Positions 17,842-33,649 of a DNA stretch of 36,049 nt are shown one piece after another. The DNA is from a virus. Position 1 is the stretch's first letter. Every line of letters begins with the position of its first letter. The notes under the pieces were generated by a model that was not told where the DNA came from, did not search any database, and was given only the letters and a program-made list of their open reading frames with translations. The DNA is taken from positions 1-36,049 of the IMG/VR virus record IMGVR_UViG_3300047317_000371; one strand, given 5' to 3'. The position numbers and the translations under genes are program-made.

Positions 17842-19776
17842 ATGTCAGCCATCCCATCCCCGGACTGGGACACCATCGAAGCGGTGTCGCTGACGCTGGC
17901 GACCTACGGCTGCTTCCCCGTGAAGTTGTGCCGGGTCACCGACCACAGCCACAAGGACAAGGACGGCGTGTCCCGCCCGTGCCGCACTCCGGGCAAGCGC
18001 CCAGAAGAGGGGGGCTGGGAGAAGGGCAGCCGCGAGAAGAACCTGCCCCTGATGGATGCGTGGCGGACGATGGGCTACAACGTCGGCAACGTCATCACCG
18101 ACCCGGCTGTCGGGATGGACGAGGATGTCCCCGGCGGGCTGACCAAGTGGTTCGAGGAGTTGGACGAGCCCGTCCCGTACACGCTGGGCGACGAGGTTCC
18201 CCTCACCGGCAAGCGACACTTCATCGTCCTGCGCAACCCCAACGTGCCGGGTGAACTCGCAGGTGACTTCCGGTTGGAGGACGGGACAGTCATCGGCGAA
18301 GTCGCACGCGACGGAGCGCGGCAGTTCGTCACACCGGGCAACGTCTGGCGCAGCACCGACGGCAGCCAGTACGACGTGAGGAAGTGGAACGGCATCGACG
18401 TTGTCGCCACACTCAGCGAGAACGCGACTCGGCGGCTGCTGGCCAACCAGATGAACGGTGGGACTTACACCTCACGCCCCGAACTGGAAGGCGAGTGGCA
18501 GTGGGCGGACGAGATGGGTTCCCGTCACAACATGTTGGTCAAGGAGGCACGGCGTCTGGCTGGGACCATCCGTGACGAGGACATGGGCGTCATGGTCTTG
18601 GGCGACTGGGCGATGCGCCACAACCTCGCAGGTCGCCATCCCGAGACCGGGCGCATCGTGGACGACGCGGAGGTGCGCGAGGCGTTCGCATCAGCCCTGC
18701 GCAAGTACGACGAGGACCCCGCCCCCATCACCCTGCTGGTCCCGACCATCGAGGCCCACCAGCAGCAGCAGGAACAGCATCAGCAGCGCCTGACATGGGA
18801 GACGCTGGAGACCTTGCCGTACGGAGCGACACCCTCGCCCTTGGTCCTCAACCAGTTCATCGCACCCGAGGGCTGGACGGTGCTGTACGCCAACGGCGGG
18901 ACAGGCAAGGGCTTCTTGGCTTTGTGGATGCTGCACCAGTACCTGCTGGCCAATCCCGACAAGCGGGCGATGGTGCTGGACTACGAGGGCCACCAGTGGG
19001 AGTGGGGCAACCGGGCACGCAACATGGGCTGGTCGCAGAGCGAGCGCGAGCGGGTCATCTACATCGACCCGTACGACCCGGTCTGGAAGAAGGGGCATAC
19101 GCTCGCTGGCCTCGCGCCCTCGTTGCGCCCCCACGCAGACGCGGAGGGGGTGGGGCTCTTCATCGTGGACTCGTACTCGACGGCTGCGGGCACGGGTAGC
19201 GAGATGGGCGGGCTCGAAGGGGCGGTGGACTTCTTCAAGGCGGGGTCTGCGTTGGGCGCACCGGGCTTGGTGCTTGCCCACACATCGAGCGAGGACCGCT
19301 TCCCCAAGCGACCGTTCGGCTCGGTGTTCATCCACAACCTCGCTCGTGAGACGTGGTCGGGAGCGCAACTCAGCGTGGACACCGGACTCATCGTCAAGGG
19401 CCAGTTCGGTGTGACGGAAACGGTCATGCAGGTAGAACTGCGCAACATGAAGCGCAGCGTCGGTCAGCGGGTCACGGCAGGGCAGGTATTCGACATCGGC
19501 TTCCGCTCGACCGGGGCCATCACGGTGGACTACATGCAGACCTACCAGCGCCCGATGCGCGACCTCATCGCGGATGTTCTCGCGTCCTCGTCAGCGGCGA
19601 TGACCGCCAAGGGCATCGCCGCTGCCATCAAGGAGGACTACGACCGGGACGTGGATGAGACCACCGTGCGCCGGACCATCGAGCGCGGCATTGACGGCGT
19701 CATCGAGGTGGGCACCAAGCGCCCCAAGACATACGCCGCGTCGGAACAGGACGAACAGGACAAGGGGGGTCTGTAG
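17842..19776 (+). CDS. bifunctional primase-polymerase / AAA ATPase (helicase) replication protein
   Basis: A 644-aa replication protein that probably primes and unwinds phage DNA. The N-terminal domain (1-190) matches the Prim-Pol (archaeo-eukaryotic primase) pattern: an acidic catalytic pair in GMDEDVPGG (D93/D95) followed by TGKRHFIVL (H126). A linker contains a Gln-rich run (QQQQEQHQQ, about 307-315). The second domain is a RecA/RepA-like ATPase with Walker A ANGGTGKG (350-357), a strand MVLDYEG (378-383) and Walker B LFIVDSYS (439-446). The C-terminus (about 585-635) is a winged-helix candidate. ATG at 17842 has AGGAGC 7 nt upstream. The last codons (SEQDEQDKGG) are written by the start of a DNA repeat cluster, and the stop codon sits in the loop of a 21-bp hairpin. 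First gene of the rightward operon. Confidence 0.88.
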   Translation: MSAIPSPDWDTIEAVSLTLATYGCFPVKLCRVTDHSHKDKDGVSRPCRTPGKRPEEGGWEKGSREKNLPLMDAWRTMGYNVGNVITDPAVGMDEDVPGGLTKWFEELDEPVPYTLGDEVPLTGKRHFIVLRNPNVPGELAGDFRLEDGTVIGEVARDGARQFVTPGNVWRSTDGSQYDVRKWNGIDVVATLSENATRRLLANQMNGGTYTSRPELEGEWQWADEMGSRHNMLVKEARRLAGTIRDEDMGVMVLGDWAMRHNLAGRHPETGRIVDDAEVREAFASALRKYDEDPAPITLLVPTIEAHQQQQEQHQQRLTWETLETLPYGATPSPLVLNQFIAPEGWTVLYANGGTGKGFLALWMLHQYLLANPDKRAMVLDYEGHQWEWGNRARNMGWSQSERERVIYIDPYDPVWKKGHTLAGLAPSLRPHADAEGVGLFIVDSYSTAAGTGSEMGGLEGAVDFFKAGSALGAPGLVLAHTSSEDRFPKRPFGSVFIHNLARETWSGAQLSVDTGLIVKGQFGVTETVMQVELRNMKRSVGQRVTAGQVFDIGFRSTGAITVDYMQTYQRPMRDLIADVLASSSAAMTAKGIAAAIKEDYDRDVDETTVRRTIERGIDGVIEVGTKRPKTYAASEQDEQDKGGL

Positions 19777-20096: not shown

Positions 20097-20679
20097 GCAG
20101 AAGACACCCATCGAACAGGCCATCGAAGCCATCCAAGCGGCACAGGCCAGAGGCATCCCACCACCCACCGAGATAACCCTGAGCGAGGGTGCGATGGCGC
20201 AGATACGCGACCTCGTCAAGAACTCACCTGTCGCTGGCACGGGCAGGGCGAACACCTTGCTGGGCGTGCCCATCAACGTGACCACAGCGCCAAGCGGTGG
20301 CCCACTGATGAAAGCGTACGAGGCACAGAAGAAGCGAGCGGCCCAAACACAGGGCAGGCGCATCGAGGGGCTCGTCTTCGACGAGAGCGGTACGCAACTG
20401 CAGCGTGACCTCGAAGACTCGCTGTGGGCGCTGGCCACGCTGCACACGCCCTGCTTCACGAGAGGCGCACTCGCCAACCACGTGGGACCGGGGCACATGG
20501 AGGGCGACTGGTACGTGAGACATCTCTACGAGGAAGAGGTGCAACTGCTGTGCAAGTGCCGGATGATTCTGGTCATGGCACGTTGCCAGTTCGACGACGG
20601 TCGTGGTGCGTGTGAGGAACCGGCCTTCCCGAAGGAGGGAACCTTTCGCAAGGACGTGAGGTGTTCTCAGCATGAGTGA
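20089..20679 (+). CDS. hypothetical protein, 196 aa, with C-terminal Cys cluster
   Basis: Not recognised. The N-terminal 60 residues are helical (IEQAIEAIQAAQARG, EGAMAQIRDLVKN). The C-terminal third is Cys-rich: C120, CKC around 154-156, then CQFDDGRGACEEPAFP and a terminal CSQH, which reads like a zinc-binding treble of Cys/His. The ATG overlaps the preceding gene's stop, and its own stop overlaps the next start (ATGAGTGA), so it belongs to the replication operon. A GCTCGTC/GACGAG hairpin with a TTC loop lies at 20371-20385. Confidence 0.7.
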   Translation: MPKQKTPIEQAIEAIQAAQARGIPPPTEITLSEGAMAQIRDLVKNSPVAGTGRANTLLGVPINVTTAPSGGPLMKAYEAQKKRAAQTQGRRIEGLVFDESGTQLQRDLEDSLWALATLHTPCFTRGALANHVGPGHMEGDWYVRHLYEEEVQLLCKCRMILVMARCQFDDGRGACEEPAFPKEGTFRKDVRCSQHE

Positions 20680-21070
20680 CGAGCAGCCCTTGGTGTTTGC
20701 CGTCGCACCGGGTGGCACGTTCAGCATCCAGCCGCCAGAGCGTCCGGCCACTCGGGACGGGCTGTCGCCCGTCCCTCGCTCTCGTACCAGCAAGGCGCAG
20801 GAGGAGTACGACGCCAAGCGTCGGCCTCAGGCTGTGCTGCTCTATCGCTTCCTCGCTGCGAGTCTGGAGACCGGGCGTAGTTGGAGGGAGTGCTGGGCAT
20901 TGGGAGAGAGCCAAGAGTCTTTGGAGGAGTACGAACTCAACGCTGGCTGGGATGTGGGACCAATCGTCGTGTGGTTGCGCTCACATGGGGTGGACATCGA
21001 GGCGCTGTACGACGTGGTCGCAGGCGAGACGCGGTTCTACCTGAGGGTCGCAGTGGTCGGTAACCCCTGA
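20672..21070 (+). CDS. hypothetical protein, 132 aa
   Basis: Not recognised. An N-terminal disordered Pro/Arg-rich half (APGGTFSIQPPERPATRDGLSPVPRS) is followed by a helical domain (AQEEYDAKRRPQAVLLYRFLAASLE) and a compact C-terminus with aromatic residues (WRECWALGESQESLEEYELNAGWDVGPIVVWL). It overlaps the upstream gene by 8 nt and is the last gene before a 1.4-kb non-coding stretch. Codon usage matches its neighbours. Confidence 0.7.
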   Translation: MSDEQPLVFAVAPGGTFSIQPPERPATRDGLSPVPRSRTSKAQEEYDAKRRPQAVLLYRFLAASLETGRSWRECWALGESQESLEEYELNAGWDVGPIVVWLRSHGVDIEALYDVVAGETRFYLRVAVVGNP

Positions 21071-22451
21071 GTTACGTTCCCCCCACGCCTAGGTTCTAGA
21101 GGGGCAGCATTCCACACACACACTTCGCTGTCACCAAAGGTGGCGGGGGTGGGGATTGAGCGTCAACGGAGTTTTTGGCCTCGGCGCGGAGTACATACAC
21201 AGACCGAGGTCTGTGTATGTATGAGCGCACGGTGAGAGCAACAACGAAGTTGTTGCTCTCACATTCCCTCGTGCCGGAGCCTATGGCCATTGGCCTTAGG
21301 GCCAAGGCTATAGGCCAATGGCCAATCGGCGATGGGGCTGACAGTCACCGGTAGCCTAGGGAGTCACGCCGACCTATGGACCAAGGTCCATAGGTCTATG
21401 CACATAGCCCTCCAGTTCCAAGGAACTGGACGCCACGTGTGACTCAGTTCTAAGGAACTGAGTTCAGCCACTGACCGAAGCGGGGTCTGAAACCCCAGCA
21501 CCATGTCTACCCCCTTTAGGGGTAGGTCGCCGAACCCTATGTGAGGGCAACACCGAAGGTGTTGAGTCTCTGCTTCCAAGTCCTTCCAACTTTCATGTCA
21601 TGTCAGTAGCGCCCACTTCCCTCAGGAAGTGGGCGCTACTGCGCTGATACTCGGAGGACTACGTCCTCCGTAAGACTTTCGGTGAGACCAACAAGTGACG
21701 TAGTCACTTGTCGTGCACACGCCCCCACTCGCACCCTGAGGTTTCACCTCAGTGAGGCACAGGAGGAACTTGGCCCCATCTTGGGCTGAGAAACCCTCGC
21801 GTGCGCGTAGACGACGAAGTCGTCGCGCACAGGGCACGAGTCACGTGACAACACGCAGGATTGCTCCCCGTGTTGTCGCGCTGAACTCGATGAGCCCCAT
21901 TCTGCCGCCGGTTCTGCCGTACTGGTAGGGCCAGCCGATGACGCCGACCTAGGGCTCGACTGGTGGCACCCCGGTCGTCAACCCAGCGACGGAGACGTTC
22001 CCCTGAGAGACAGGGAGCCGGGAGTGAAACGCAGAGCAAGGCAGAGCCTTCCCGACACGAGGTCGCCGCTTCAGCACACACCGCTGAAAGCGCCGGGTTC
22101 AGGCATTCACCTACTCAGCCAGAGACGCGAAACACCCTCTGGGTGTTGCAGCCCGTGGTTCTGACGGCGATAGCCGTCGGAGTCCCGACTGGTCGCAGTG
22201 TGAGATGGATGGGTCGGCCCTAGGACGGCGAACCACAAGCCTCACCGACACAGTCGGTCCACCGGTGATGAGCAACGCTCGTAGAGACGCCCCGACATCC
22301 GGGGAAGTAGCGCCAGCAATCGTGCTGTCTGGACTGCAAGTCCTGACAGATGCGTCACGTGAGGCTGCCTCTGGGACACCACTCTCACCTAAAGGTGAGG
22401 GGAACCCACTGACGATGACCCTCTGGCGAGGGTCGAAAGGGACCATCGAAG
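21071..22451. other. 1.4-kb region without convincing genes, dense array of unique hairpins
   Basis: No frame with a good start, ribosome site and protein-like composition was found here. The region instead holds at least 17 perfect inverted repeats of 7 bp or more with 2-5 nt loops and unrelated stems. Strongest: 21193-21220 (13 bp), 21232-21262 (14 bp, GAA loop), 21285-21323 (12 bp, inner partial stem), 21371-21396 (12 bp, AA loop), 21411-21430 (9), 21442-21463 (9), 21604-21641 (17 bp, CTCA loop), 21652-21670 (8), 21691-21711 (9), 21801-21830 (7+5) and 21847-21877 (9, long loop). Weaker ones follow at 22131-22147, 22163-22178, 22384-22399 and 22417-22434. Spacing is mostly 15-60 nt. The part 21880-22120 has few. 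It may be a structured RNA leader, an origin/termination region, or a product of the process described in the findings. Confidence 0.75.
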
Positions 22452-22691
22452 ATGGCAACGCTCACCGCCGAGTCCTTCGCCGCTGCTGAAGCAGCGTGGC
22501 TCGCCACCAAACCCTGCACGGTCCCTTCGGGACATCGCGCTGGTTTCATGGGGTTCTGCTCTCACTGTGAGACAGATGTCCTCTTCGAGGACAGCCCGGA
22601 GTACGAGGCTCTGTTCCCCGAGTCCGACAACCCCGGCTGTAAGCCGGGTTGCAAGGGGCCGAACCCTTGCGGAGAGACCTGCGACATCTGA
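22452..22691 (+). CDS. small Cys-rich protein, 79 aa, putative zinc-binding
   Basis: Unrecognised. Helical N-terminus (TAESFAAAEAAWLATK) then a Cys-rich part: C-S-H-C at about 56-59 region (GFCSHCETDVLFED) and CKPGCKGPNPCGETC near the end, enough ligands for one or two zinc sites. ATG 22452 is preceded at some distance by GAAAGGGA. Several stretches of the gene are palindromic DNA: CGCTGCT/AGCAGCG at 22481-22496, TGTCCTC/GAGGACA at 22577-22593, CCCGGCT/AGCCGGG at 22632-22648 and GCAAGGG/CCCTTGC at 22651-22670. The stop codon itself lies in an 8-bp hairpin (22688-22708) that could act as a terminator. Confidence 0.6.
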   Translation: MATLTAESFAAAEAAWLATKPCTVPSGHRAGFMGFCSHCETDVLFEDSPEYEALFPESDNPGCKPGCKGPNPCGETCDI

Positions 22692-22740
22692 AGCCTATAG
22701 GGCTTCAGCACACACCCCCATCCCTTCAGGAGGACACGAA

Positions 22741-22824
22741 GTGTCTCAGTGCGAAAGGTCGGACTGCAATCCGGCGACCTGCTCTCATTCCTCTCACCGC
22801 CGACCCAAAGGGTCGAAGCGATGA
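22741..22824 (+). CDS. 27-aa Cys-rich micropeptide
   Basis: GTG start with a near-perfect ribosome site (AGGAGG, 7 nt spacing) preceded by the CCCCATCCC leader element found before other genes. The product is MSQCERSDCNPATCSHSSHRR followed by PKGSKR: C4-x4-C9-x4-C14-x-H16 and H19, a plausible small zinc knuckle with a basic tail. Its TGA overlaps the ATG of the next tiny frame (ATGA). Too small for most gene finders. The ribosome site and coupling are the main support. Confidence 0.55.
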   Translation: MSQCERSDCNPATCSHSSHRRPKGSKR

Positions 22825-22892
22825 CCGAGAGCCCTTGGGTCAAGGCGGCTCGTGAACGTCGCCTGCCGGTCAAAGACCTCACACGACGTTAG
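22821..22892 (+). CDS. 23-aa basic micropeptide, translationally coupled
   Basis: ATG overlaps the stop of the upstream 27-aa frame (ATGA), the arrangement used throughout this operon. The product is MTESPWVKAARERRLPVKDL followed by TRR: amphipathic and strongly basic. No family recognised. It may be a real small protein or a chance frame; the regular coupling and protein-like composition favour the former. It is followed by a 9-bp hairpin (22907-22925) and a promoter. Confidence 0.4.
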   Translation: MTESPWVKAARERRLPVKDLTRR

Positions 22893-22935
22893 CCGAACCC
22901 TCTGGATTGGCCCCTAAGGGGCCAACGTAGAGCGT

Positions 22936-22965
22936 TTGACTCGCTCTTGGTGCCACTGGTACAGT
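22936..22965 (+). promoter_or_regulatory. promoter for the MoxR/CobT-like/vWA operon
   Basis: TTGACT (22936-22941) and TACAGT (22960-22965) with an 18-nt spacer, 50 nt before the ATPase ATG. The -10 is embedded in a CCACTG-GTA-CAGTGG inverted repeat (22953-22967). The following leader ATCAATCCCCATCCC (22972-22986), a TGCCCT/AGGGCA hairpin (22989-23002) and GAAAGGAA lead to the start. The promoter at 28061 has the same layout. Confidence 0.6.
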
Positions 22966-23014
22966 GGTGCTATCAATCCCCATCCCATTGCCCTAAAGGG
23001 CAGAAAGGAACGGC

Positions 23015-24505
23015 ATGGCGAACATCGCCAAACTGCCTGACGGCATAGCCGTCGCAGCGAACCCTCCCGGCATGGTGGTGCCCTACGGGCCACACCTGAC
23101 GGCGGCGTTCGAGGCGACGACCGGCTATGCCATTCTGGCGAAGCCAGATGGCACGGCTCTGGCCAAGATTGGTGTGACCAATCGGCCTCTCGTTCAACTC
23201 GTAGAGTTGGACCCCATCACGGTTCCCTATGTGAACCGGTTCATCAGCCCTTCGGGGCTGGTCATCATCAAGGACTGGCGGACCGGGCTCTACCGGACCA
23301 AGGTCCGGCGTGGTGGCAAGGCCAAGCGGGCACTGCCTCTGGCAGTGGTCACGGAGACGCCCAAGGCGGCTTCAACACACACTGCAGCACCGAAGGTGCA
23401 GCAGGACGCCCCGAAGATGTCGGCTGGCGCCGTCATCACCGTCAGCGGCGATACGGAGTATCGCTCGACAATCCCCGGCATGGTCATGCTCCCCAAGGTC
23501 ACCCTGAAGGGTGCCGGACGGGGCAACACCGATGTCGGCGGCATCATCCTGCCCACAGAACAGTTCACTGTTCTGGAAGATGCATGGCACCTCGCACAGC
23601 AGGGAGACCCTGCTGCGGTGCTGCTGACGGGTCCGGCAGGGACCGCCAAGACGATGCTCGTTAGAGCATTCGCCGCCTACCTCGGTGTCCCCTACCTGAA
23701 GGTAGACGCCGGGGCCGTTCGGACTGCCGACGATTGGGCCGGTGCCTTTAGGCAGGACCCCAACACCAAGACTTGGGCTCACCGCTGGTCGCCTTTGGCG
23801 ATGGCTCTGCGTGAGGGCAAGCCGTGCGTCCTGCACATCGACGAACTCACCCGCACAGAGACCCCCGCTGCGCTCAACGCCTTCATGGGTCTGCTCGACG
23901 AGACAGGGACCCTTCTGGTCCCTGATGCCAATGCCGTCCTGACAATGCCGAAGGGCATTCTGGTGGTGGCAACGGCCAACATCGGGCCAGAGTTCGTCGG
24001 AACTCTGCCTCTGGACGGTGCAGTCCGGCAGCGGTTCCCCTACGGGGTTCGCATGGCCAATCCCAGTGAGGCCAATGAGTCGAAACTCATTGTCAAGCGA
24101 ACCGGGGTCAGCGACGAAGTCGCTGTGGCTCTGGTCCGCATGGCCAATCAGCAGCGGCAGCATCGGGACGATGCTCAGCAGTACCCGTCCGGGGCCATCA
24201 TCAGCACTCGTATCCTGCTTAGCATCGCTAAGCGGATTGCGGTCCGCCACGCTGACCCCCGCGAGGCTGTCATCTCTGTCCTGCAAGGACAGTTCGACCC
24301 CGGCGACGACGCCGCTCTCACCGTGGTCATCGACTCGCAGTTCCCGAAGAAGCCGGTGGCTACGCCACCGGTGGCTGCCGGTGCTGCCTCCATCGTGACG
24401 GAACGTCACTGGTTCAACGGCTCGGGCTCGTACTGCACCTACACGCTCAGCAACGGAGTTGCTTGTGGTGCCCCGACCAAGAGCCCCATCCACTTCGGCT
24501 CCTGA
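23015..24505 (+). CDS. MoxR/CobS-type AAA+ ATPase
   Basis: AAA+ ATPase of the MoxR/CobS group, which remodel partners together with vWA-domain proteins. Residues 1-180 are an N-terminal domain of unknown role. The ATPase has Walker A GPAGTAKT (206-213), Walker B CVLHIDE (D276/E277), a sensor-1 strand VVATANIGPEF and an arginine-finger segment DGAVRQRFPYGV. The C-terminus adds a short Cys-containing tail (GSYCTYTLSNGVACGAP). ATG 23015 is preceded by GAAAGGAA. It is followed 13 nt later by a CobT-like gene and then by a vWA gene, giving the classic ATPase plus vWA pairing. The gene contains many perfect short hairpins. Substrate is unknown; CobS-like genes in phages need not make cobalamin. Confidence 0.9.
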   Translation: MANIAKLPDGIAVAANPPGMVVPYGPHLTAAFEATTGYAILAKPDGTALAKIGVTNRPLVQLVELDPITVPYVNRFISPSGLVIIKDWRTGLYRTKVRRGGKAKRALPLAVVTETPKAASTHTAAPKVQQDAPKMSAGAVITVSGDTEYRSTIPGMVMLPKVTLKGAGRGNTDVGGIILPTEQFTVLEDAWHLAQQGDPAAVLLTGPAGTAKTMLVRAFAAYLGVPYLKVDAGAVRTADDWAGAFRQDPNTKTWAHRWSPLAMALREGKPCVLHIDELTRTETPAALNAFMGLLDETGTLLVPDANAVLTMPKGILVVATANIGPEFVGTLPLDGAVRQRFPYGVRMANPSEANESKLIVKRTGVSDEVAVALVRMANQQRQHRDDAQQYPSGAIISTRILLSIAKRIAVRHADPREAVISVLQGQFDPGDDAALTVVIDSQFPKKPVATPPVAAGAASIVTERHWFNGSGSYCTYTLSNGVACGAPTKSPIHFGS

Positions 24506-24518
24506 AAGGAGAGCGACA

Positions 24519-25859
24519 ATGGACCTAGAGGTCTTTGACCTCAAACTCGGGAAGGGTGCCACGGTGCCCTACATGACCGACGATGCCAGAGGCATCGTGG
24601 CAGTGAAACTGCTGGACGCAGTCCAGACAATCGCTGATGTCCTCACCGTCAACGACGGTGGCAAGGGCTGGACGGTGACGTTCGACCCCGGCCTCAACGC
24701 CTACACCGACCGCTCGGCCAACCGCAGCATCGTCGTCAGTGGCAAGCCACTGTTCGACGCCAAGCCGGGGACCCCGCTGGTGGACGTAGCGAAGGTGATG
24801 AGTGGGTTCGTGGTCCACGAAGTGGGCCACACCGGACTCGACTTCTTCACGGCGGTCAGAGACCGCTGGCCGGGCAAGACCCTTCCCCTCACATTGGCCA
24901 ACATCATCGAGGACGTAGTCCTCGAACTCAGGACGGTGGACCGCTATCGCGGCTTCGCCGACCACGGTGACGGCAACATCTTCCGCCCCACTCTAGAGTG
25001 GGTCGCCGAGAAGACCTCACCGAAGACTCCACTGAAGTGGAGCGGCTCGACCGGCCACAAGGTCAACGTCACCGGCCAGATTGTCCGCTACCGAGACTTC
25101 GTCTCGTTCGACACCGACGAGGTCACCCAGACCCACCTTCGGTGGGTCGAAGACGAGTGGATGCCGGGTATCACCATCGACCTGACACCCGAAGGGTGTG
25201 TCGCTCTCATCGAGCGATGGCTCGACCACGTCATGGCCACCAAGGAGCAGGACGAGCCCACTCCCGAACCCCCGAAGCCGCCGACCACCGATGGTGGTAC
25301 CGGCTCCGACCAGACCCTCCCGAACGAGGACGAGGACGAGGGCAAGGGCAGTGGCGAGGGTGGCGACACCGAAGGTGAGGACGGCGACGGTGAGGGCAAT
25401 CCCGGCGGTGGTGACACCGAAGGTGATGACTCCGACGACGAAGACTCCACCGAAGGTGGTGGCGACTCCGAGTCCGACGACGACGGCGAGGACGGAACCT
25501 CCGGTTCCGAAGACGGCGACGAAGACGGCGAGGGTGGCCAGCCCGGTGATGACGGCGACGGAACGTCCCGTTCCGGTGATGGCAACGATGCCGACACCAT
25601 GAACCGGGTCGATGCTCCGAAGGGAGCAAACGACGGACCGGGCAAGGGCGGAAGCGGACAGGCGGTGGCCGAGGCTGCCGACGAGAACGAAGTTCTCGAC
25701 GACTTCGAGCCCGATGACCTCACCGACTCGTTCGACGAGACGGCGAAGCCGGAAGGCCAGTACGAACAGCGCCGCCTCAACGAGGCGGAGCAGATGGAGC
25801 GCGTCACCACTCGGGTGGACGCCGGTGCATTCGGGAAGATGCGAGTCGTCTTCAAGTAG
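24519..25859 (+). CDS. CobT-like protein: HEVGH metallopeptidase-like domain plus long acidic tract
   Basis: A 446-aa protein whose first 250 residues hold H100-E-V-G-H104 (GFVVHEVGHTGLDFF) followed by LANIIEDVVLELRTVDR (about 126-142), the pairing seen in CobT/vWA-associated metallopeptidase-like domains, where an NxxED acid completes the metal site. Residues about 250-385 are an extreme Asp/Glu/Gly tract like the acidic middle of CobT, and the rest is a short helical tail. CobT normally ends in a vWA domain; here that domain is in the next gene, so the pair looks like a split CobT. ATG 24519 has AAAGGAGA 7 nt upstream, 13 nt after the ATPase stop. The acidic tract DNA repeats CACCGAAGGTG-type units. 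Confidence 0.8.
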   Translation: MDLEVFDLKLGKGATVPYMTDDARGIVAVKLLDAVQTIADVLTVNDGGKGWTVTFDPGLNAYTDRSANRSIVVSGKPLFDAKPGTPLVDVAKVMSGFVVHEVGHTGLDFFTAVRDRWPGKTLPLTLANIIEDVVLELRTVDRYRGFADHGDGNIFRPTLEWVAEKTSPKTPLKWSGSTGHKVNVTGQIVRYRDFVSFDTDEVTQTHLRWVEDEWMPGITIDLTPEGCVALIERWLDHVMATKEQDEPTPEPPKPPTTDGGTGSDQTLPNEDEDEGKGSGEGGDTEGEDGDGEGNPGGGDTEGDDSDDEDSTEGGGDSESDDDGEDGTSGSEDGDEDGEGGQPGDDGDGTSRSGDGNDADTMNRVDAPKGANDGPGKGGSGQAVAEAADENEVLDDFEPDDLTDSFDETAKPEGQYEQRRLNEAEQMERVTTRVDAGAFGKMRVVFK

Positions 25860-25889
25860 CCCTCACCGAAGGTGAGAGAAAGGAGAACC

Positions 25890-26699
25890 GTGGCAAGGAA
25901 AGAGCGGGACCGGTCCACTGAAGTGGTCCGGCATGAGAGCCGCAAGCCGTACATCAATGCCGCCACAGCGGCTGGCATCCAGACCGTGTTCAACAGAACA
26001 CGGCTCAGCCACCAGACATGGGAGTCCCGTCAGTTGACGGGGCGTCTCGATGGTCGGGTGGCATGGCGGAACGATGCTCGCGGCAGCATCGACATCTTCC
26101 GTGAACGGAAGCAGCCCTCGCCGACCCGGCTCGACGTTCACATCCTCGTGGACAGCAGCGGGTCGATGAGCGGGGACCGTATCTGCAGGGCGCAGGACAT
26201 GGCGGGAACCTTGGTGGATGCGTTCAAGCGCATCCCCACGGTCCGGGTCCACGTCTACCAGCACTTCGCCAATCAGGGCGTCACCGAAATCCACCGGGTT
26301 TATGAACCCGGTGACAGTCTCGACGGGCTCAATCACATGCCGGAACTCATTGCCGGTGGCAATGCCGACGGGTTTGCACTCGAAGCCGTCGGGATGCGGG
26401 CCGCTTCTCTGAAGCGTCCCGACTGGAAGAGCCTCGTCATCATGGTGTCCGACGGCTTGCCGTCGGTGAGCGGGGTGGGGGCAACGGCCAACATCCTCGA
26501 CCACTCGGTCATGGTCACAGCCAACCTGAAGCGCAAGGGTGTGCAGGTCATGGCGGTAGCCATCGCTGGTGACAACGCGGCTCACGAGTACATGTACGGG
26601 AAGGGCTCGTCGGTCCTGTTCACCGGTGACTGGAACGAACTCAACCGCTCCTTCGGAGCGGTGTTCGGCAAGGTGCTGTCAACGGCGAAGGTGGTGTGA
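25890..26699 (+). CDS. von Willebrand factor A (MIDAS) domain protein
   Basis: 269-aa vWA protein and likely partner of the MoxR-type ATPase. The MIDAS motif D88-S-S90-G-S92 (HILVDSSGSMSG) and the later VSDGLPS loop are intact, with the usual alternating strands and helices (VRVHVYQHF, SLVIMVSDG, VQVMAVAIAGD). An N-terminal 80-residue basic extension precedes it, matching the CobT C-terminal half. GTG at 25890 is chosen for its AAAGGAG site; a CTCACC/GGTGAG hairpin (25862-25876) lies just upstream. Its TGA overlaps the next ATG (TGATG). Ten or so hairpins run through the gene, including 9 bp at 26292-26313. Confidence 0.92.
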   Translation: MARKERDRSTEVVRHESRKPYINAATAAGIQTVFNRTRLSHQTWESRQLTGRLDGRVAWRNDARGSIDIFRERKQPSPTRLDVHILVDSSGSMSGDRICRAQDMAGTLVDAFKRIPTVRVHVYQHFANQGVTEIHRVYEPGDSLDGLNHMPELIAGGNADGFALEAVGMRAASLKRPDWKSLVIMVSDGLPSVSGVGATANILDHSVMVTANLKRKGVQVMAVAIAGDNAAHEYMYGKGSSVLFTGDWNELNRSFGAVFGKVLSTAKVV

Positions 26700-26860
26700 T
26701 GAACCCCGACTTCACCCGCTACGTCGAGGGGGTCCCGGTCAAGGACCGGACCCCCAAGTTGGCCGCACGAAAGGGCCGGATGAAACTCAATGGCCGCAGC
26801 CTGAAGAGGCTGCTCAACGAACGTGCCGCCAAGGCACAGAGAGGCAACCCATCCCGATGA
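26699..26860 (+). CDS. hypothetical basic protein, 53 aa
   Basis: Unrecognised; too short for the usual length cut-off. Its ATG overlaps the vWA stop (TGATG) and its TGA overlaps the next ATG (ATGA). The product is strongly basic in its second half (KLAARKGRMKLNGRSLKRLL), helical, with no Cys. It could bind nucleic acid or the acidic CobT-like tract; both are guesses. An 8-bp hairpin spans 26728-26755. Confidence 0.6.
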   Translation: MNPDFTRYVEGVPVKDRTPKLAARKGRMKLNGRSLKRLLNERAAKAQRGNPSR

Positions 26861-27033
26861 ACACCAAGGCGGTCGTCGCCGCCATCGTTGCGACCCAGTT
26901 GATACTGGGTCTCATCCTCATCCTCATCCTCATCACCGTCGGCAATCAGGGGAAGACAAGTGTCTTTCCCTGCTACCAGTCGGACGGGAAAGGTGGGTTC
27001 GCATACTCGCCCATCTGCACGAGCCAGCCGTGA
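26857..27033 (+). CDS. small single-pass membrane protein, 58 aa
   Basis: Residues 5-27 form one strong transmembrane segment (VVAAIVATQLILGLILILIL), followed by a 30-residue polar tail with two Cys (FPCYQSDGKGGFAYSPICTS) that would be outside if the N-terminus is in, possibly disulphide-linked. It is coupled to both neighbours by ATGA and GTGA overlaps. The lead AACCCATCCCG before the ATG is the recurrent leader element. Function unknown. Confidence 0.65.
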   Translation: MNTKAVVAAIVATQLILGLILILILITVGNQGKTSVFPCYQSDGKGGFAYSPICTSQP

Positions 27034-27302
27034 GCCCTCGTCGATGGCGGAAGCCATTGCCCCCACCACCAGTGGCCGAAGGCCAGACCGAGGCATTCGA
27101 TGCCGACGGCTTTGACCTGATGGACCCGAAGCCCGAGGTCGAATACATGTGCCGGGAGTGTTACTCCCGGCGCATCGTGGGACCAATCACCAAGACCGTT
27201 GACCCTCGTTGGGTCGGCGGCACCTGTCTGGACTGCGGCGAACGAGTCATCGCCAACGTCCGCCCCATCCCGAAGGAGGTCACCAAAGGTGACGCAGAGT
27301 AA
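27030..27302 (+). CDS. zinc-ribbon protein, 90 aa
   Basis: GTG start overlapping the previous stop (GTGA). After a Pro-rich N-terminus, C41-x2-C44 (MCRECYSRR) and C67-x2-C70 (TCLDCGERV) form a four-Cys zinc ribbon. Such proteins often bind nucleic acid or act as adaptors. The first Cys pair is followed by the 9-bp hairpin 27151-27171. The end of the gene overlaps the next gene by 14 nt and contains that gene's ribosome site (AAGGAGGT at 27273-27280). Confidence 0.7.
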   Translation: MSPRRWRKPLPPPPVAEGQTEAFDADGFDLMDPKPEVEYMCRECYSRRIVGPITKTVDPRWVGGTCLDCGERVIANVRPIPKEVTKGDAE

Positions 27303-27936
27303 TGAACTCGACCGCTTCATAGAAGAGGGACGAGAAGCAGCAGCACGGGCCACGGTCCTGATGGACCGTGACCCGAAACTCCCGTACATCAGCGCCTACA
27401 TCATCGCCCGCGACATGATGGGCAGTGACCGGTCACTGCAGTGGATGCGCGAGGGCATGGAGTGGGACGAAGCCGAACGGTGGTGCGGTTCCTACGGACG
27501 GCTCGACCTCAGGGTCAGAGCCCTCGAAGAGGGACTCATCACCGAGGTTCAGGCGTACGAGGGACTGGCCTCGGCTTGGTCACACAGTGACCCCGACGAC
27601 ACCGACCCCCGGTTCCTCACCCTGTGGGTGGAAGCGTTCGCCGCCAACAGGCAGCGGTACCTTCGGGACCACACCGACAAGCGACTGCCGAACGGCAGTC
27701 GGCTGACCATCTATCGCGGTCAGGACGAGGACCAGTCCTTCGGACTGTCGTGGTCGCTGAACCGCAAGACGGCGGAGAAGTTCGCCAACGGTGCCGCCAC
27801 CCGTGAGGCCAACCGTGGTGGTGTGGTCTACACGGCGGTCGTTGACCGCCGCGATGTCATGGGCTACATGCCCGGACGTGGTGAGGCCGAGGTCATCGTG
27901 AACCCTGACGATGTCAGGGATGCGGGGCTCCGATGA
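27289..27936 (+). CDS. putative ADP-ribosyltransferase-fold protein, 215 aa
   Basis: The C-terminal half carries an R-S-E-like series: LTIYRGQDE (R143), GLSWSLNRKTAEKFANGA (S154-W-S156) and GRGEAEVIV (E199-A-E201), with the helix-after-serine (TAEKFA) typical of ADP-ribosyltransferase folds. The N-terminal 110 residues are helical. The start is GTG 27289 because a perfect AAGGAGGT sits 8 nt upstream; the later ATG at 27302 is out of frame. Its ribosome site and start are caught in a GTCACC-AAA-GGTGAC hairpin (27279-27293). Enzyme activity is a hypothesis: the last motif could be structural only. A second ART signature occurs in the giant virion protein. Multiple 8-9 bp hairpins lie in the gene. 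Confidence 0.6.
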   Translation: MTQSNELDRFIEEGREAAARATVLMDRDPKLPYISAYIIARDMMGSDRSLQWMREGMEWDEAERWCGSYGRLDLRVRALEEGLITEVQAYEGLASAWSHSDPDDTDPRFLTLWVEAFAANRQRYLRDHTDKRLPNGSRLTIYRGQDEDQSFGLSWSLNRKTAEKFANGAATREANRGGVVYTAVVDRRDVMGYMPGRGEAEVIVNPDDVRDAGLR

Positions 27937-28004
27937 GCGGTCGAACGTGCCGCTTCTGCGGCTACTGGACCAAGGGTCGGCACTGCCAGTGGTGCGGTAA
28001 GTAG
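27933..28004 (+). CDS. 23-aa double-CxxC zinc-ribbon micropeptide
   Basis: ATG overlaps the ART-like gene's stop (ATGA). The product MSGRTCRFCGYWTKGRHCQW followed by CGK has C6-x2-C9-x8-C18-x2-C21, a minimal four-Cys zinc site with basic and aromatic residues between. The clean knuckle spacing and the overlap make chance unlikely. It ends just before a hairpin at 28005-28019 (GCGGAC/GTCCGC) and the next promoter. Confidence 0.6.
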   Translation: MSGRTCRFCGYWTKGRHCQWCGK

Positions 28005-28060
28005 GCGGACTCTGTCCGCTTCGGAGTCCGTAGCCAACAACAGCAGAACATTTGTTCTCT

Positions 28061-28088
28061 TTGCCACTCACTACCCGTAGGGTATAGT
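28061..28088 (+). promoter_or_regulatory. promoter upstream of 28128 operon
   Basis: TTGCCA (28061-28066), 16-nt spacer, TATAGT (28083-28088). TACCC-GTA-GGGTA (28072-28084) overlaps the -10, mirroring the palindromic -10 of the promoter at 22936. The leader ATCAATCCCATCCC (28095-28108) is nearly identical to the one at 22972. AGAACA/TGTTCT (28045-28058) is a possible operator. Confidence 0.55.
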
Positions 28089-28127
28089 GGCCCCATCAAT
28101 CCCATCCCGCAGGAAGGAACGCACACC

Positions 28128-28316
28128 ATGCGCCACACTACACAGCCGAACGGGTCACGTGACCTCAATCGCCTCACTCTCACCACCGGTCGGCGAACGG
28201 AGCCCCGACTCTACATGGCTCACCCTATGGGTGAGACCAAGCGGAGGTCATGGTTGCCGGTCATCTTCATCATCGCGGTGGTCGTCATCATCGGCCTCGC
28301 CGGTATGTCCCGATGA
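28128..28316 (+). CDS. small tail-anchored membrane protein, 62 aa
   Basis: First gene after the 28061 promoter; AGGAAGGA lies about 10 nt before the ATG. Residues 1-41 are polar and basic; residues 42-59 (WLPVIFIIAVVVIIGLAG) are a single transmembrane helix, so the protein should be anchored by its C-terminus. Stop overlaps the next ATG (ATGA). The codons before the helix contain a 7-bp hairpin (28219-28235). Not recognised; too small to call holin or other lysis protein without context. Confidence 0.6.
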   Translation: MRHTTQPNGSRDLNRLTLTTGRRTEPRLYMAHPMGETKRRSWLPVIFIIAVVVIIGLAGMSR

Positions 28317-28513
28317 AGGGCCGACCTTCGGTCGCCAACGAGGGCAGAGTCTGCATCCTCGTGCCCGACCACGGACCCTCGCTCATCATGCGGAGCGGGC
28401 GGGAGTGGTGCCCTCATCAGCAGCACGACGGGCTTGGTCGTCGCAAAGCGACGACGCCGTGGCTCGACAAGCAGGTCACCGATGACTCGGCTGACCGACC
28501 TGACGCAGCCTGA
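28313..28513 (+). CDS. hypothetical protein, 66 aa, possible Cys/His metal site
   Basis: Unrecognised. C14 and H20 (RVCILVPDHG) with C33-P-H-x2-H (EWCPHQQHDG) could form one metal site. The last 20 residues are acidic and overlap the start of the next gene in another frame. The ATG is coupled to the upstream stop. An 8-bp hairpin at 28437-28455 (AAA loop) lies in its 3' part. Confidence 0.55.
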   Translation: MKGRPSVANEGRVCILVPDHGPSLIMRSGREWCPHQQHDGLGRRKATTPWLDKQVTDDSADRPDAA

Positions 28514-29870
28514 ACTCGATGTCGTCCTGCTGCTCGCACAGGGGAGGGTGACAGCAAGTGCTGTCACCCTCGCTGCTGACCTGTGGCGGACGACCGACAC
28601 ATGGCTGGCCGAGGACCCGTACCCGCTCATCACCTACATCCTCGACTCGTTATCGAGTCGAGGACTGGTGCGCTTCCGACTGGCCGCGCCGAAGGATGCC
28701 ATCCACTCGATGGACTTCCCGATGGACATTCGTCTCACCCCGAAGGGGTGGGAACTACTCGGCTACTCGCACAAGACAGCCGAGGTCGGGTCGCGTGGAC
28801 GGCATGAGCGCGAGCCCATGCCCGGTGACCTCACCGACTACCTCAACCACAAGTACCACTCCGAAGGAGGTGCAATCGAAGTCGAGGATTTCCCTACCCA
28901 CCGTGACCGTTTCCCCCACCACGAACACATGTACGGAGTACCCATCCTCATGGCAAACACAGCAACCCACCCCAAGCCACGGCGTTCACGCGCCGAGCGT
29001 CTTGCAGACCCTACGGTTCTGCAAGACCCAGACGGTGACGGCTCGCGTGGCTACATCCGCGTGACCCCAGACATGGAAGCGATGGTGATAGCCGCTCGCT
29101 CGCGCATGGGCACTGTCCTCTACAAGGACATTGCCGACGCCGTCGGTCTGCCCGAACGGACCATCCGCTACATCCTCACCGACCTGCCCCGACTCCGTCG
29201 GGCCAACGGTGGCGAGCGGCTGGAGAAGTCTCTCAAAGAGCGGGTCATGGCCACCGTCGATGTCCTCGGTGAGGTCAAGGACGTAGCGGAACTGCGCCGC
29301 ATCCTTGGCATGGCCGACCCCGAGCATGACGTGATGCACGTGCTGCATTCTCTTCACACACAGGGCCGCATCGACTTCGTCGAACGTGGCACAGGCAATG
29401 GCGACACGACCGTCATCCACATCCGGCCCGCGAAGAAGGGCGGCAAGCGCCAGACCCCGGTGGAGACAGAGCCCGAACAGGAAACTGTGACGGCAATATC
29501 GCCGCTGCCGGTCATCAGCCGGGAAGAGGAAGAGCGGGCAATCAGCGCCGCTCACAACGCAGAGACCGGGTTCGAGGCGACAACGCCGGACATCCCAGTT
29601 ACGGCGGCGTCAGCACCCGAACCCGATGACGAAGGATACCCACTGCTCGACGCCCTGTTGGACCGAGAGCGCACACGACTCGACGGTGACAGCAAGGGCA
29701 TGGCCTTTGTCGTCGCAGCCGAGGCAATCCAAGCCATCGACCCCGACACCGCACGCTCACTGATGGAGAAGGCGAAGCAGTACGACGTACCGTTCCCCTC
29801 ACCCATCGAGCAGGAGTACCTCCGTTATGTGGCAACGCATCCGCCAGTTGTGGTCGCCGATGAGCAGTGA
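28482..29870 (+). CDS. multi-winged-helix DNA-binding protein, 462 aa
   Basis: Three helix-turn-helix/winged-helix candidates: residues 5-95 (ending TPKGWELLGY, a common wing motif), 195-245 (YKDIADAVGLPERTIRYILTDLPRL, a clear HTH) and 252-312 (DVAELRRILGMADPEHDVMHVLHSLHTQGRIDF). A Pro/Glu-rich linker (325-400) and a helical C-terminus follow. It is probably a regulator or a replication/partition DNA-binding protein. ATG 28482 is chosen for AGGTC spacing and the MTRLTDL start; it overlaps the previous gene by 32 nt. The first third of the gene has 10-13 bp hairpins (28544-28571, 28639-28664, 28999-29027) and the rest has almost none, so the hairpin zone ends inside this gene. Confidence 0.7.
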   Translation: MTRLTDLTQPELDVVLLLAQGRVTASAVTLAADLWRTTDTWLAEDPYPLITYILDSLSSRGLVRFRLAAPKDAIHSMDFPMDIRLTPKGWELLGYSHKTAEVGSRGRHEREPMPGDLTDYLNHKYHSEGGAIEVEDFPTHRDRFPHHEHMYGVPILMANTATHPKPRRSRAERLADPTVLQDPDGDGSRGYIRVTPDMEAMVIAARSRMGTVLYKDIADAVGLPERTIRYILTDLPRLRRANGGERLEKSLKERVMATVDVLGEVKDVAELRRILGMADPEHDVMHVLHSLHTQGRIDFVERGTGNGDTTVIHIRPAKKGGKRQTPVETEPEQETVTAISPLPVISREEEERAISAAHNAETGFEATTPDIPVTAASAPEPDDEGYPLLDALLDRERTRLDGDSKGMAFVVAAEAIQAIDPDTARSLMEKAKQYDVPFPSPIEQEYLRYVATHPPVVVADEQ

Positions 29871-30054
29871 CCCGTACGCCGACGGCTGGCGCGAGGGTCG
29901 TGACCAAGCCATCAAGGACATCCGGGCTGCCCTCTTGCGAGAGTTGCCCTCACTGACCGTGCTTCACGCCGTGGACACGGAGTACATCGACGTGGGAGAA
30001 GTCCTCCGCGTCATCGACCAAGTCAGAACCCATCCCGAAGGAGCATCCCGATGA
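29860..30054 (+). CDS. hypothetical protein, 64 aa
   Basis: Begins MSSDPYADGWREGRDQ at an ATG overlapping the previous gene by 11 nt; an ATG 11 codons upstream (29827) is possible but the downstream start gives the more typical N-terminus. Helical and charged, no motif. The stop overlaps the next ATG (ATGA), and its last codons contain the leader 15-mer CCCATCCCGAAGGAG that serves the next gene. Confidence 0.6.
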   Translation: MSSDPYADGWREGRDQAIKDIRAALLRELPSLTVLHAVDTEYIDVGEVLRVIDQVRTHPEGASR

Positions 30055-30260
30055 CCATTCCCGCCACCACCACCCTCGTCACCGAACTGCTGGTCGTCCG
30101 GCCCACGGGCACCGTCCGCGTCCGCGACGTGCCACTGAAGGTCGAACCCCGCCGCCAGTACATCGACCTCGACTTCACGATGCCGACCCTTGGCGTCACC
30201 ATCCGGCTCAACGGAGCCGAACGCATCGCCCTCATCGAAGCGTTGGGCGGCAAGGCATGA
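30051..30260 (+). CDS. hypothetical protein, 69 aa
   Basis: Short beta-rich protein (ELLVVRPTGTVRVRDVPLKV, YIDLDFTMPTLGVTIRLNGAERIALIEALGG). No family recognised. Good ribosome site (AAGGAG at 30038-30043), coupled on both sides by ATGA overlaps. From here on the genes are nearly free of hairpins. Confidence 0.65.
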   Translation: MTIPATTTLVTELLVVRPTGTVRVRDVPLKVEPRRQYIDLDFTMPTLGVTIRLNGAERIALIEALGGKA

Positions 30261-30811
30261 CCGCCGATGACACGCGGGAGGCGCTGGATAAGGCCGACCA
30301 TGACATCGCGGCGCTGACTCGATGGGACAAGCGGTCTGTTCCCGGCGGGTTCCACGTACCACTAAGCGGAGTCCTTGCGGTCATGTCGGACCTCCGTGCC
30401 GCCCTCGCCGCAGCCCGTCGTGACCCCGAGCCTTATCGGTGTGGCGGGCCGCAGACAGGACAGCCCCGGCCGCACACGGCCTGTAACTGCACGCCCCGTC
30501 GTGACCCCGAGTCGGTCGCGTCGGCGGACGACTTGCGAGAAGCCATCGCACGACTCGCAGTGGGCGACCCGGAGTATCCGCTGCATCGCGTCCTCGCAAT
30601 CGAAGCCGCCATCCGGGGCACGGAAGCCCGCGCCTCGCTGGACGTGGTGGCGGTAGCTAAGGCGTTTCGCGTCATCGCCGACATCGACTATCCCGTGGAT
30701 TGGAGCAACTGGCTGGGTGGCGAGGGGACGGCATCGGCAGCATTGGCGGGATTGCAGACCGCCGAAGCGTTCATCGCCAGATACCGCGCCATCATCGAGG
30801 CCGAGCGATGA
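30257..30811 (+). CDS. hypothetical protein, 184 aa
   Basis: Unrecognised. Residues 1-55 are helical. A central part has C60, C74 and C76 (YRCGGPQTGQ, TACNCTPR) in an otherwise Pro/Arg-rich linker flanked by two RRDPE repeats (residues about 54-58 and 80-84). The second half is helical (DDLREAIARLAVGD, RVLAIEAAIRG). The duplicated RRDPE suggests a small internal duplication (CGTCGTGACCCCGAG occurs twice). Overlaps its neighbours by ATGA. Confidence 0.6.
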   Translation: MTADDTREALDKADHDIAALTRWDKRSVPGGFHVPLSGVLAVMSDLRAALAAARRDPEPYRCGGPQTGQPRPHTACNCTPRRDPESVASADDLREAIARLAVGDPEYPLHRVLAIEAAIRGTEARASLDVVAVAKAFRVIADIDYPVDWSNWLGGEGTASAALAGLQTAEAFIARYRAIIEAER

Positions 30812-30843
30812 CGACGCCGAGGACGGAAGCCGCCAATGGGTGA
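30808..30843 (+). CDS. 11-aa overlapping leader frame
   Basis: ATG overlaps the preceding stop (ATGA) and the frame ends TGA 8 nt inside the rusA-like gene (product MTTPRTEAANG). It may only serve to carry ribosomes to the next start. Kept as a low-confidence item because every other junction in this operon is coupled. Confidence 0.2.
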   Translation: MTTPRTEAANG

Positions 30844-31354
30844 GACCAACCGCCCGCGACTTCGACTGCAGTTCGAGGTCGCGGGCACACCCATCCCGCA
30901 AGGCTCGAAGCGGGCGTGGATAAGCAGCAAGACGCATCAGGTCGTGATGACCGAGGACGCTGGCGTGCGACATAGCACGTGGCGCAACGAGGTCACGGGT
31001 CAGGCGCGTCAGGCGATGAGCAACCTTGGTCGGTTCGGTGAGCCCTTCCGTGAGCCCATCAGTTGCTCGCTCACCTTCCAGTTCCACCGCCCACTCAGCC
31101 ATTACGGCACCGGCAAGAACGCGGAGAAGGTGAAGCCGTCGGCTCCGCCGTCACCGACCAAACCACCAGACCTCGACAAGTTGACCCGTTCGATATGGGA
31201 CTCGCTCACATCTGTGGTCTGGGTCGATGACGCTCAGGTCATTGCCGCCACCATCAGGAAGCAGTACATCGAACGCTGGCAAGCAGAGGGTGTCCTCATC
31301 CTCGTTGGCACGTTCCCCACACCCGGAGGAGAGGACGAGCATGGCCTCGAATGA
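30836..31354 (+). CDS. rusA: RusA-family Holliday junction resolvase
   Basis: Endonuclease that cuts four-way DNA junctions during recombination and before packaging. The 172-aa protein has the family's layout: an early beta strand with PIPQGSKR (19-26) and the catalytic signature KPPDLDKLTRSIWDSLTSVVWVDDAQV, in which D112/D114 and D131/D132 correspond to the conserved acids of E. coli RusA (D70, D72, D91). It lies in an operon with a PD-(D/E)XK nuclease and endonuclease VII, a recombination set. The gene is about 50 residues longer than E. coli RusA, mostly in the middle loop. Confidence 0.94.
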   Translation: MGETNRPRLRLQFEVAGTPIPQGSKRAWISSKTHQVVMTEDAGVRHSTWRNEVTGQARQAMSNLGRFGEPFREPISCSLTFQFHRPLSHYGTGKNAEKVKPSAPPSPTKPPDLDKLTRSIWDSLTSVVWVDDAQVIAATIRKQYIERWQAEGVLILVGTFPTPGGEDEHGLE

Positions 31355-32430: not shown

Positions 32431-32456
32431 CCTCAACCCCATCCCAAGGAGAACCA

Positions 32457-33311
32457 ATGCTCAGCATCACCGTGTCCGCGACCGGACCCAAGAACGCAAC
32501 GACCGACCCCGAGACAGGGCTCCGGTACTACGACTGGAAGGGACGCAAACTCCCTTCGTCCACCAGCCTCCGCCGCATGGCGGGGCTGCCCTTCCGCCTC
32601 CACCAGTGGGCCATCAGCAAGGTGGTCCAGCGTGCGGTGGACGAACACCTCATCCTGCGCCAGATGCTCGACCGGCCCAAGCGCCCACGTGAGCGGGTGC
32701 GTGACAAGAACGTGGCCAAGGAGGCGGGCAAGTGGCTCCGCTCTGCGGCCACCGAGGAGCGTGACGCAGCCAGCGAGTTGGGCACCTACGTCCACGACTG
32801 CGCGGTGAGGCGAACCCCACTGAGTCAGGTTGACCCGGTTGCCCGCCCGTACCTCATCAACTTCTACGACTGGGTGGCGTCGAGTGGGGTCAACATCATC
32901 GCCACCGAGAAGCAGGTCTTCAACCTGACCGAGGGCTACGCCGGGACGTTCGACCTCTTGGTCGAGTGGCCGCTCACCGGAGACATCGGTGTCATCGACA
33001 TCAAGACCAGCCGTGGGACCTACGCCGACCACGCCCTGCAGGTGGTGAGTTACGCGATGGGCGAGTTCATCGGCGAGGACGATGTCATCGACGTTGCCCT
33101 CACCAAGGCGCTGCACTCGGCGAACACGATGGCCTTGCTCCATCTGACCGAGGACGGCTGGCGCTACCAGCGGGTGCCCGCCACGCCCGAGTTGTTCGAT
33201 GCGTTCAAGGGACTCATCGCCTACGCCACGTTCATGGCTGCGTACCCAGAGATTGAGGCGCTGCTGGACTTGGAAGTGGCGGGCGGCATCCCGCTCACGG
33301 CCCAGCCATGA
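32457..33311 (+). CDS. PD-(D/E)XK exonuclease (Cas4/RecB-like)
   Basis: 284-aa nuclease of the RecB/Cas4-like superfamily. Visible motifs: G109-T-Y-V-H113 before the core, E151, D166 (YAGTFDLLVEW), D181-I-K183 (VIDIKTSRG) and Q195-x3-Y199 (LQVVSYA), the full catalytic set. No Cas4 iron-sulphur cysteines were seen, so it is closer to phage recombination exonucleases. Leader CAACCCCATCCCAAGGAG gives a strong ribosome site. ATGA overlap with endonuclease VII. Probable role: end resection in phage recombination. Confidence 0.9.
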   Translation: MLSITVSATGPKNATTDPETGLRYYDWKGRKLPSSTSLRRMAGLPFRLHQWAISKVVQRAVDEHLILRQMLDRPKRPRERVRDKNVAKEAGKWLRSAATEERDAASELGTYVHDCAVRRTPLSQVDPVARPYLINFYDWVASSGVNIIATEKQVFNLTEGYAGTFDLLVEWPLTGDIGVIDIKTSRGTYADHALQVVSYAMGEFIGEDDVIDVALTKALHSANTMALLHLTEDGWRYQRVPATPELFDAFKGLIAYATFMAAYPEIEALLDLEVAGGIPLTAQP

Positions 33312-33649
33312 CCGCCACCATCCGGTCTAGGAAGGGCCGTACGCCCACCAGACGACACGGACTGGGGAAGAGCGGCGTCGATGCCCTGTTGGCCCAGCAG
33401 GGCGGCTCCTGCGCCATCTGTGGCGTGCCGTACGAGGACAAGCCGGGGTCGCGCCTTGCGATGGACCACGACCACCGCCACTGCGCTGGTGTGAAGGGCT
33501 GCCCGCAGTGCGTTCGTGGGATGTGCTGCAACTCGTGCAACAACATCCTGCGGCTGGCGCATGATGACCCGGAGGTACTGCGCAAGGCCGTGGCGTACCT
33601 TGAACAGGCCAACAAGCGGGCGTTCTGGTGGGAGGCCAACCGTGAGTGA
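33308..33649 (+). CDS. recombination endonuclease VII (HNH/His-Me)
   Basis: Branched-DNA and Holliday-junction resolvase of the T4 gp49 type. Conserved features: C35-x2-C38 (CAICGVPYED), the active-site L-x-M-D53-H-D-H56, then V-R-G-M-C73-C74-N-S-C77-N78, and the DDPEVLRKAVAYLE tail. Length (113 aa) suits the phage catalytic-domain-only form. The insert HCAGVKGCPQC adds two extra Cys. Together with RusA it gives this phage two junction-resolving enzymes. Confidence 0.94.
   Translation: MTATIRSRKGRTPTRRHGLGKSGVDALLAQQGGSCAICGVPYEDKPGSRLAMDHDHRHCAGVKGCPQCVRGMCCNSCNNILRLAHDDPEVLRKAVAYLEQANKRAFWWEANRE

Follow-up and report, generated by a model that had tools for sequence, protein, structure and literature searches.

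We describe here a dense array of short inverted repeats, referred to as the hairpin island, in a 36-kb viral contig (IMG/VR record IMGVR_UViG_3300047317_000371, positions 1 to 36,049; this whole stretch of 36,049 nucleotides is called the window). To the left of the island lie leftward virion genes (a 2,668-aa protein, portal, and terminase) and then a rightward primase-helicase, and downstream of it lie the genes for RusA, an exonuclease, and endonuclease VII; the island itself spans a non-coding leader and a MoxR/CobS-CobT-VWA gene module, and its genes and their presumed transcript all run in one direction (Table 1). The dense part ends about 180 nt inside the open reading frame (ORF) of a possible helix-turn-helix (HTH) protein, with two hairpins within that coding sequence (CDS). 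A preliminary description, made from the sequence alone, had drawn the island from 21193 to 29130, which located the start well and set the end too far to the right. No Rfam or tRNA match was found for the island.

Table 1. Coordinates of the hairpin island, selected hairpins, and genes in and around it (window numbering)
Feature	Position	Strand	Remarks
Hairpin island	21192..28664	.	67 perfect inverted repeats, stem at least 7 bp
Non-coding leader, ~1.4 kb	21071..22451	.	Longest stems (17, 14, 14, 12 bp); no Rfam/tRNA match
14-bp stem hairpin	21,192-21,221		Direct scan
14-bp stem hairpin	21,232-21,262		Direct scan
12-bp stem hairpin	21,371-21,396		Direct scan
9-bp hairpin	21442..21463	.	Compensatory C-G to G-C change in G001; G004 has the window state
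Longest hairpin, 17-bp stem, 4-nt loop	21604..21641	.	Direct scan
Small hairpin-rich ORF, 79 aa	22452..22691	+	No assigned function
MoxR/CobS-like AAA+ ATPase	23015..24505	+	Pfam AAA_5, CbbQ_C; phrog_249
CobT-like acidic protein	24516..25859	+	Weak phrog_1576; orthologues in G002, G006, G007
8-bp hairpin in CobT-like gene	24580..24598	.	Compensatory changes at two neighbouring pairs in G001
CobT-type VWA domain protein	25872..26699	+	Pfam VWA, CobT_C
phrog_4776 protein	27199..27936	+	No assigned function
Possible HTH protein	28482..29870	+	Weak Pfam HTH; N-terminus aligned by eye with G007
13-bp stem hairpin	28544..28571	.	In CDS; encodes mirror-like peptide GRVTASAVTL
11-bp stem hairpin	28,639-28,664		Within CDS of possible HTH protein
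Primase-helicase	17842..19776	+	Upstream of island
RusA-type Holliday junction nuclease	30836..31354	+	Downstream; Pfam RusA 1.3e-13
Endonuclease VII-type Holliday junction nuclease	33308..33649	+	Downstream; Pfam Endonuclease_7 4.6e-18

We scanned positions 21,193-28,700 directly for perfect inverted repeats (stem of at least 7 bp, loop of 0-6 nt), and compared the counts with 40 dinucleotide-preserving shuffles and with codon-preserving shuffles that keep both protein and codon use. We found 67 such repeats (vs. a dinucleotide-shuffle mean of 4.4 and maximum of 9), 33 with stems of at least 8 bp (vs. 0.9), and 15 with stems of at least 9 bp (vs. 0.2), in close agreement with the roughly 65 found and 5 expected in the preliminary description. 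The contig outside the island was at background or lower (stem of at least 7 bp: 15 vs. 11.2 expected in 1-17,000; 3 vs. 2.2 in 17,001-21,100; and 0 vs. 3.5 in 28,701-34,000), as the scattered cases noted earlier in control regions had indicated. The earlier list of longest stems was accurate for those of 17, 14 (21,232), 13 (28,544), and 11 bp, while the stem at 21,192-21,221 proved to have 14 pairs rather than 13. Loops were of 3 nt in 32 of the 67, 2 nt in 14, and 4 nt in 11, and no island stem had a loop of 7-9 nt; the excess, being limited to loops of 0-6 nt, is thus one of tight hairpins rather than of repeats in general. At stems of at least 6 bp, ~105 non-overlapping hairpins hold ~25% of island bases. 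Every stem is different, as first described, and no stem sequence is shared, so the island is not a dispersed repeat family.

The preliminary description had named shuffles preserving codons and dinucleotides as the check that could overturn its claim; the excess persisted against both (e.g. 14 vs. 1.1 in the CobS gene, below), which confirms that it is real. All sequences analysed are metagenomic, a setting in which an assembly or amplification artefact might be suspected. The same hairpins, however, are carried by an independent, near-identical contig (G001) and by a related one that spans the island start only (G004), which excludes an assembly artefact; the ORFs are intact, and 67 hairpins stand against 4.4 expected. 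We therefore regard artefact or chance as refuted, with a negligible residual probability.

Against codon-preserving shuffles, hairpins with stems of at least 7 bp numbered 14 vs. 1.1 in the MoxR/CobS gene (z 12), 12 vs. 1.3 in the CobT-like gene, 9 vs. 0.6 in the VWA gene, and 5 vs. 0.3 in the ORF at 27,199, and no gene outside the island had an excess. For a stem of 7 and a loop of 2-4, synonymous codons would allow ~6 hairpin sites per 100 nt in island genes, and 12-37% of these are realised, vs. 0/95 in the primase and 0/46 in the exonuclease. Residues encoded by stems and other residues were equally conserved across hairpin-free relatives, which argues that most hairpins were made by codon choice. 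A few hairpins, such as the 13-bp stem at 28,544 (GRVTASAVTL), also altered the protein, and two hairpins (23,016-23,030 and 25,862-25,876) cover start codons. Regular spacing of the hairpins was not significant in most genes after allowing for possible sites. As a separate observation, the primase-helicase (17842-19776) had 0 hairpins vs. 4.1 at stems of at least 6 bp in its own codon shuffles, as if they were avoided.

Arrays of this kind recur in three phage lineages. The distant relatives G005 and G008, with MoxR proteins sharing 26% identity with that of the window phage, each have an island of their own over a homologous non-coding leader and MoxR/CobS-CobT-VWA module, with unrelated stems (about 45 hairpins of stem at least 7 bp in G005 and 80-90 in G008). 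In the MoxR-CobT-VWA genes of the window phage, G005, and G008, triloop hairpins with stems of at least 7 bp numbered 19, 16, and 36, respectively, vs. 0.5, 0.4, and 0.9 in codon shuffles. In G002, which has the module, hairpins with loops other than triloops were in mild excess (9 vs. 2.1), and no island was seen in BS162P1 or Cantare, two distant phages that carry the MoxR module. With an island in some module-bearing phages and little or none in others, we consider it a feature of the module but not of every carrier. Hairpin positions were common to lineages only weakly (p 0.03-0.05), which may reflect shared residues, and the phrog_4776 homologue of G005 lies just outside its island and is hairpin-free. 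Cumulative G-C skew (21000-28000) had its peak where the island begins in both the window and G001, but reached its minimum within the island in G005; given this opposite sign, the skew turn was set aside. Two further observations concern loops: realised triloops in the island genes of the three island-bearing phages were in frame, with one codon as the loop, in 48/80 cases, in-frame sites being realised at 28% vs. 15% in the next phase; and hairpins with 5-nt loops were slightly excessive in hairpin-poor MoxR modules (7 vs. 1.9 in G002; 5 vs. 2.0 in G007) and made up 8/17 hairpins in the module of L087.

Loops and mismatches speak to whether the pairing is of DNA or of RNA. Loops were of 2-4 nt and mainly 3 nt (55/109 window hairpins, 19 of these 55 being GNA), with a C-G closing pair in 88/114 coding cases vs. 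61% in shuffled genes (p=2e-4). Compared with codon-shuffled hairpins, coding loops were enriched both for GNA (17% vs. 7%, 2.5-fold, p=3e-4) and for its complement TNC (32% vs. 21%, 1.5-fold, p=0.008), and each made up 7/27 non-coding loops, vs. about 6% expected. A null of independent bases (GNA/TNC 54% vs. 12%) was discarded as overstating the enrichment, codon-shuffled hairpins being the fairer comparison with the smaller effect. In DNA, d(GNA) triloops with a C-G closing pair have unusual stability (PMC5815330); in phage N4 such hairpins extrude in vivo from supercoiled DNA (PMC4496689). Folding energies calculated with DNA and with RNA parameters did not discriminate, since the sets used give no triloop-sequence effect.

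The same data bear on selected mRNA structure, whereby hairpins in the operon transcript would shield it from nucleases, prevent Rho loading, or conceal it from RNA-guided defence. The common direction of the island genes and presumed transcript would suit this explanation, as would a hairpin density that is greater in coding sequence, in keeping with an RNA or translation-linked role, and a slight surplus of G-T over A-C as the first mismatch past the stem (58 vs. 46, pooled). The stems, however, showed no preference for the G-U pairs that mRNA structure would accept: single mismatches in 8-pair stems were G-T in 12, A-G in 12, and A-C in 9, beside 87 perfect stems, so that G-T was no commoner than other mismatches. 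RNA-stable tetraloops were likewise scarce among the 18 window 4-nt loops (no GNRA and one UUCG; the G005 island has one GAAA loop), TNC was enriched as well as GNA on the coding strand, both within genes and in non-coding sequence, hairpins lie over start codons, and the island stops within an ORF. Selection on mRNA, the first of three meanings offered in the preliminary description, is thereby weakened, and we judge it improbable. Three-nucleotide loops, C-G closing pairs, enrichment of both GNA and TNC, and the lack of any favour for G-T point instead to pairing that acts in DNA, on either strand.

To assess how stems evolve, we compared the window with G001; this is one genome pair and includes recombinant patches, and hairpins were defined in the window unless stated. 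Changes were found at 9/1228 stem sites (0.7%), 123/4712 inter-hairpin sites (2.6%), and 12/254 loop sites (4.7%), and in the leader, too, stems were conserved and loops variable against both G001 and G004. At four-fold sites, 2/205 were changed in stems, 41/670 in spacers, and 5/36 in loops (stem vs. spacer, p=0.001; p=0.004 when pooled over both reference choices), and for hairpins perfect in both genomes 1/201 four-fold stem sites differed vs. 35/655 between hairpins. The alignment of relatives proposed in the preliminary description also revealed compensatory change: four pairs were altered on both sides with pairing retained, where ~0.1 would be expected if changes were independent at the observed stem rate.

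Both-sided changes would also be produced by a mutational process, short-range template switching, in which a nascent strand folds back during replication to serve as its own template. Imperfect palindromes would thereby become perfect, and hairpins would build up without usefulness in a region that stays single-stranded for a long time. Such a process predicts Watson-Crick-perfect stems, DNA-stable loops, and no strand preference, and it fits the replacement of hairpins in place by different ones at 21,736, 22,384, and 22,417, the loops at 21,192 and 22,907 whose changes match the reverse complement, and the protein-altering stems such as GRVTASAVTL at 28,544. The two loop inversions, with two and one changed bases, are too few to serve as evidence. 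Under a model of our own, however, free arm copying is expected to change pairs jointly at the neutral rate, and the 1/201 four-fold stem sites vs. 35/655 fall well short of this, so that selection is favoured. Moreover, divergence is not raised in the island (2.3% vs. 2.8% in 1-17.9 kb), confinement to one module would require an extra cause, and the event that looks most templated, a block switch at 24,449/24,457 (24,449-24,475), lies within a recombinant patch and was rejected as proof, clustered changes being found genome-wide through recombination. Template switching, also among the meanings first proposed, is thus spoken against as the whole story by the conserved stems, and we hold it to be doubtful, if less so than mRNA structure.

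We tentatively favour, at somewhat under even confidence, an array of DNA hairpins kept by selection, which would fold when the module is unwound or single-stranded. This is the best supported of the three original options, on account of loop type, strand symmetry, and Watson-Crick-only stems. The hairpins themselves, their perfect pairing, their recurrence, and the conservation of their stems are established, and we infer DNA to be the acting molecule. The module might be unwound by negative supercoiling, or exposed as a single strand in replication or recombination, whereupon short stems with stable 2-4-nt loops would snap shut on one or both strands. Folded hairpins could then absorb supercoils, and folding could keep the DNA from single-strand-binding, RecA-type, or nuclease activities; whether the benefit is supercoil buffering or such shielding of single strands is a guess. 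A yet more tentative proposal is that selection has recoded ~7.5 kb of coding and non-coding DNA as a second, structural code of dense fold-back hairpins in at least three lineages, independently or anciently.

Several observations weigh against a selected DNA array. With hairpins defined in G001 alone, four-fold stem changes were 8/216 vs. 36/660 (p=0.37), and the conservation test as a whole rests on a single genome pair with recombinant patches. Hairpin density is higher in coding than in non-coding parts, whereas a purely DNA-level role predicts otherwise, and loop enrichment is modest under codon-structure control. G006 and G007 retain the module with almost no hairpin excess, and presence and absence across twelve related contigs yielded no reader protein exclusive to island-bearing phages.

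Open-access literature searches returned no comparable hairpin array, and the earlier remark that no described phage system has this signature stands after these limited searches. Early promoter hairpins of phage N4, the nearest known system, have stems of 5-7 bp. Like the island, the N4 promoters consist of short DNA hairpins with 3-nt loops of the kind stabilised by a sheared G:A pair, and their stem sequence is partly free if pairing is kept (PMC4496689); in the island, however, GNA triloops are enriched without being universal. This likeness raises the alternative that the island hairpins are promoters or loading sites recognised, once extruded, by a virion RNA polymerase, possibly within the 2,668-aa protein, giant virion proteins being present in this phage family. 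N4, however, has three hairpins, sequence-conserved, strand-specific, and near the genome end, whereas the island has about a hundred unrelated ones running through genes on both strands; conserved stem or loop bases on one strand were not found, as the stems differ and both GNA and TNC are enriched. No RNA polymerase match was obtained (Pfam, PHROGs, PDB sequences, motifs), and the giant protein has an ADP-ribosyltransferase (ART) domain and an HExxH motif instead. An AlphaFold model of its conserved part was of low confidence (pLDDT 56) and is not a structural test. An N4-like function is very improbable; the units appear alike, and membership of the N4 class fails for want of shared sequence, strand specificity, and a recognisable polymerase.

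Other known systems differ in other ways. The telomeres of Streptomyces linear replicons contain several palindromes, which have GNA-type loops and fold when the DNA is single-stranded; these occupy the terminal few hundred bases and are non-coding, whereas the island covers 7.5 kb inside the genome, most of it coding. RNA viruses and RNA phages have genome-scale ordered RNA structure, in which pairing pervades coding sequence, the sequence being free and the structure selected. Pairing likewise pervades coding sequence in the island, but in a double-stranded DNA (dsDNA) phage, with tight local pairing, no favour for G-U, and no loops of the RNA-tetraloop type. Quasipalindrome correction by short-range template switching perfects imperfect hairpins with both-sided changes as scattered, rare events, whereas the island is saturated, confined to one module, and conserved in its stems. 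Dispersed repeats (REP, stoperators, integron attC sites) are many per genome and share sequence, unlike the island stems.

If selected as DNA, the island would place dsDNA phage genes under a structural constraint so far known mainly from RNA genomes, and would hint at a step of the life cycle that exposes a defined module as a single strand or strongly supercoiled. A second structural code, if true, would be the equivalent, in DNA, of the ordered structure known across whole RNA genomes, and would govern the behaviour of the module on unwinding. Were its origin mutational, the island would document, in nature, fold-back mutagenesis specific to one region. On either view it provides a sharp-edged, testable marker, present or absent among relatives, in an uncultured phage family. 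The terminase and portal had no match in cultured phages, and a host search found no match for the terminase or the MoxR protein in bacterial genomes.

Holliday junction nucleases of the RusA and endonuclease VII types are common in phages; here, one small genome has both, and both could act on extruded cruciforms, although relatives without hairpins have RusA as well. The 2,668-aa virion-type protein (1783-9789, minus strand) carries its ADP-ribosyltransferase domain (PF03496) at residues 1448-1616 and a conserved HExxH metallopeptidase motif near the C-terminus, and is probably a multi-enzyme protein that is ejected. Finally, three long hairpins (9, 16, and 9 bp) lie outside the island at 34,323-34,440, at a convergent-gene junction, and are probably bidirectional terminators of ordinary look.

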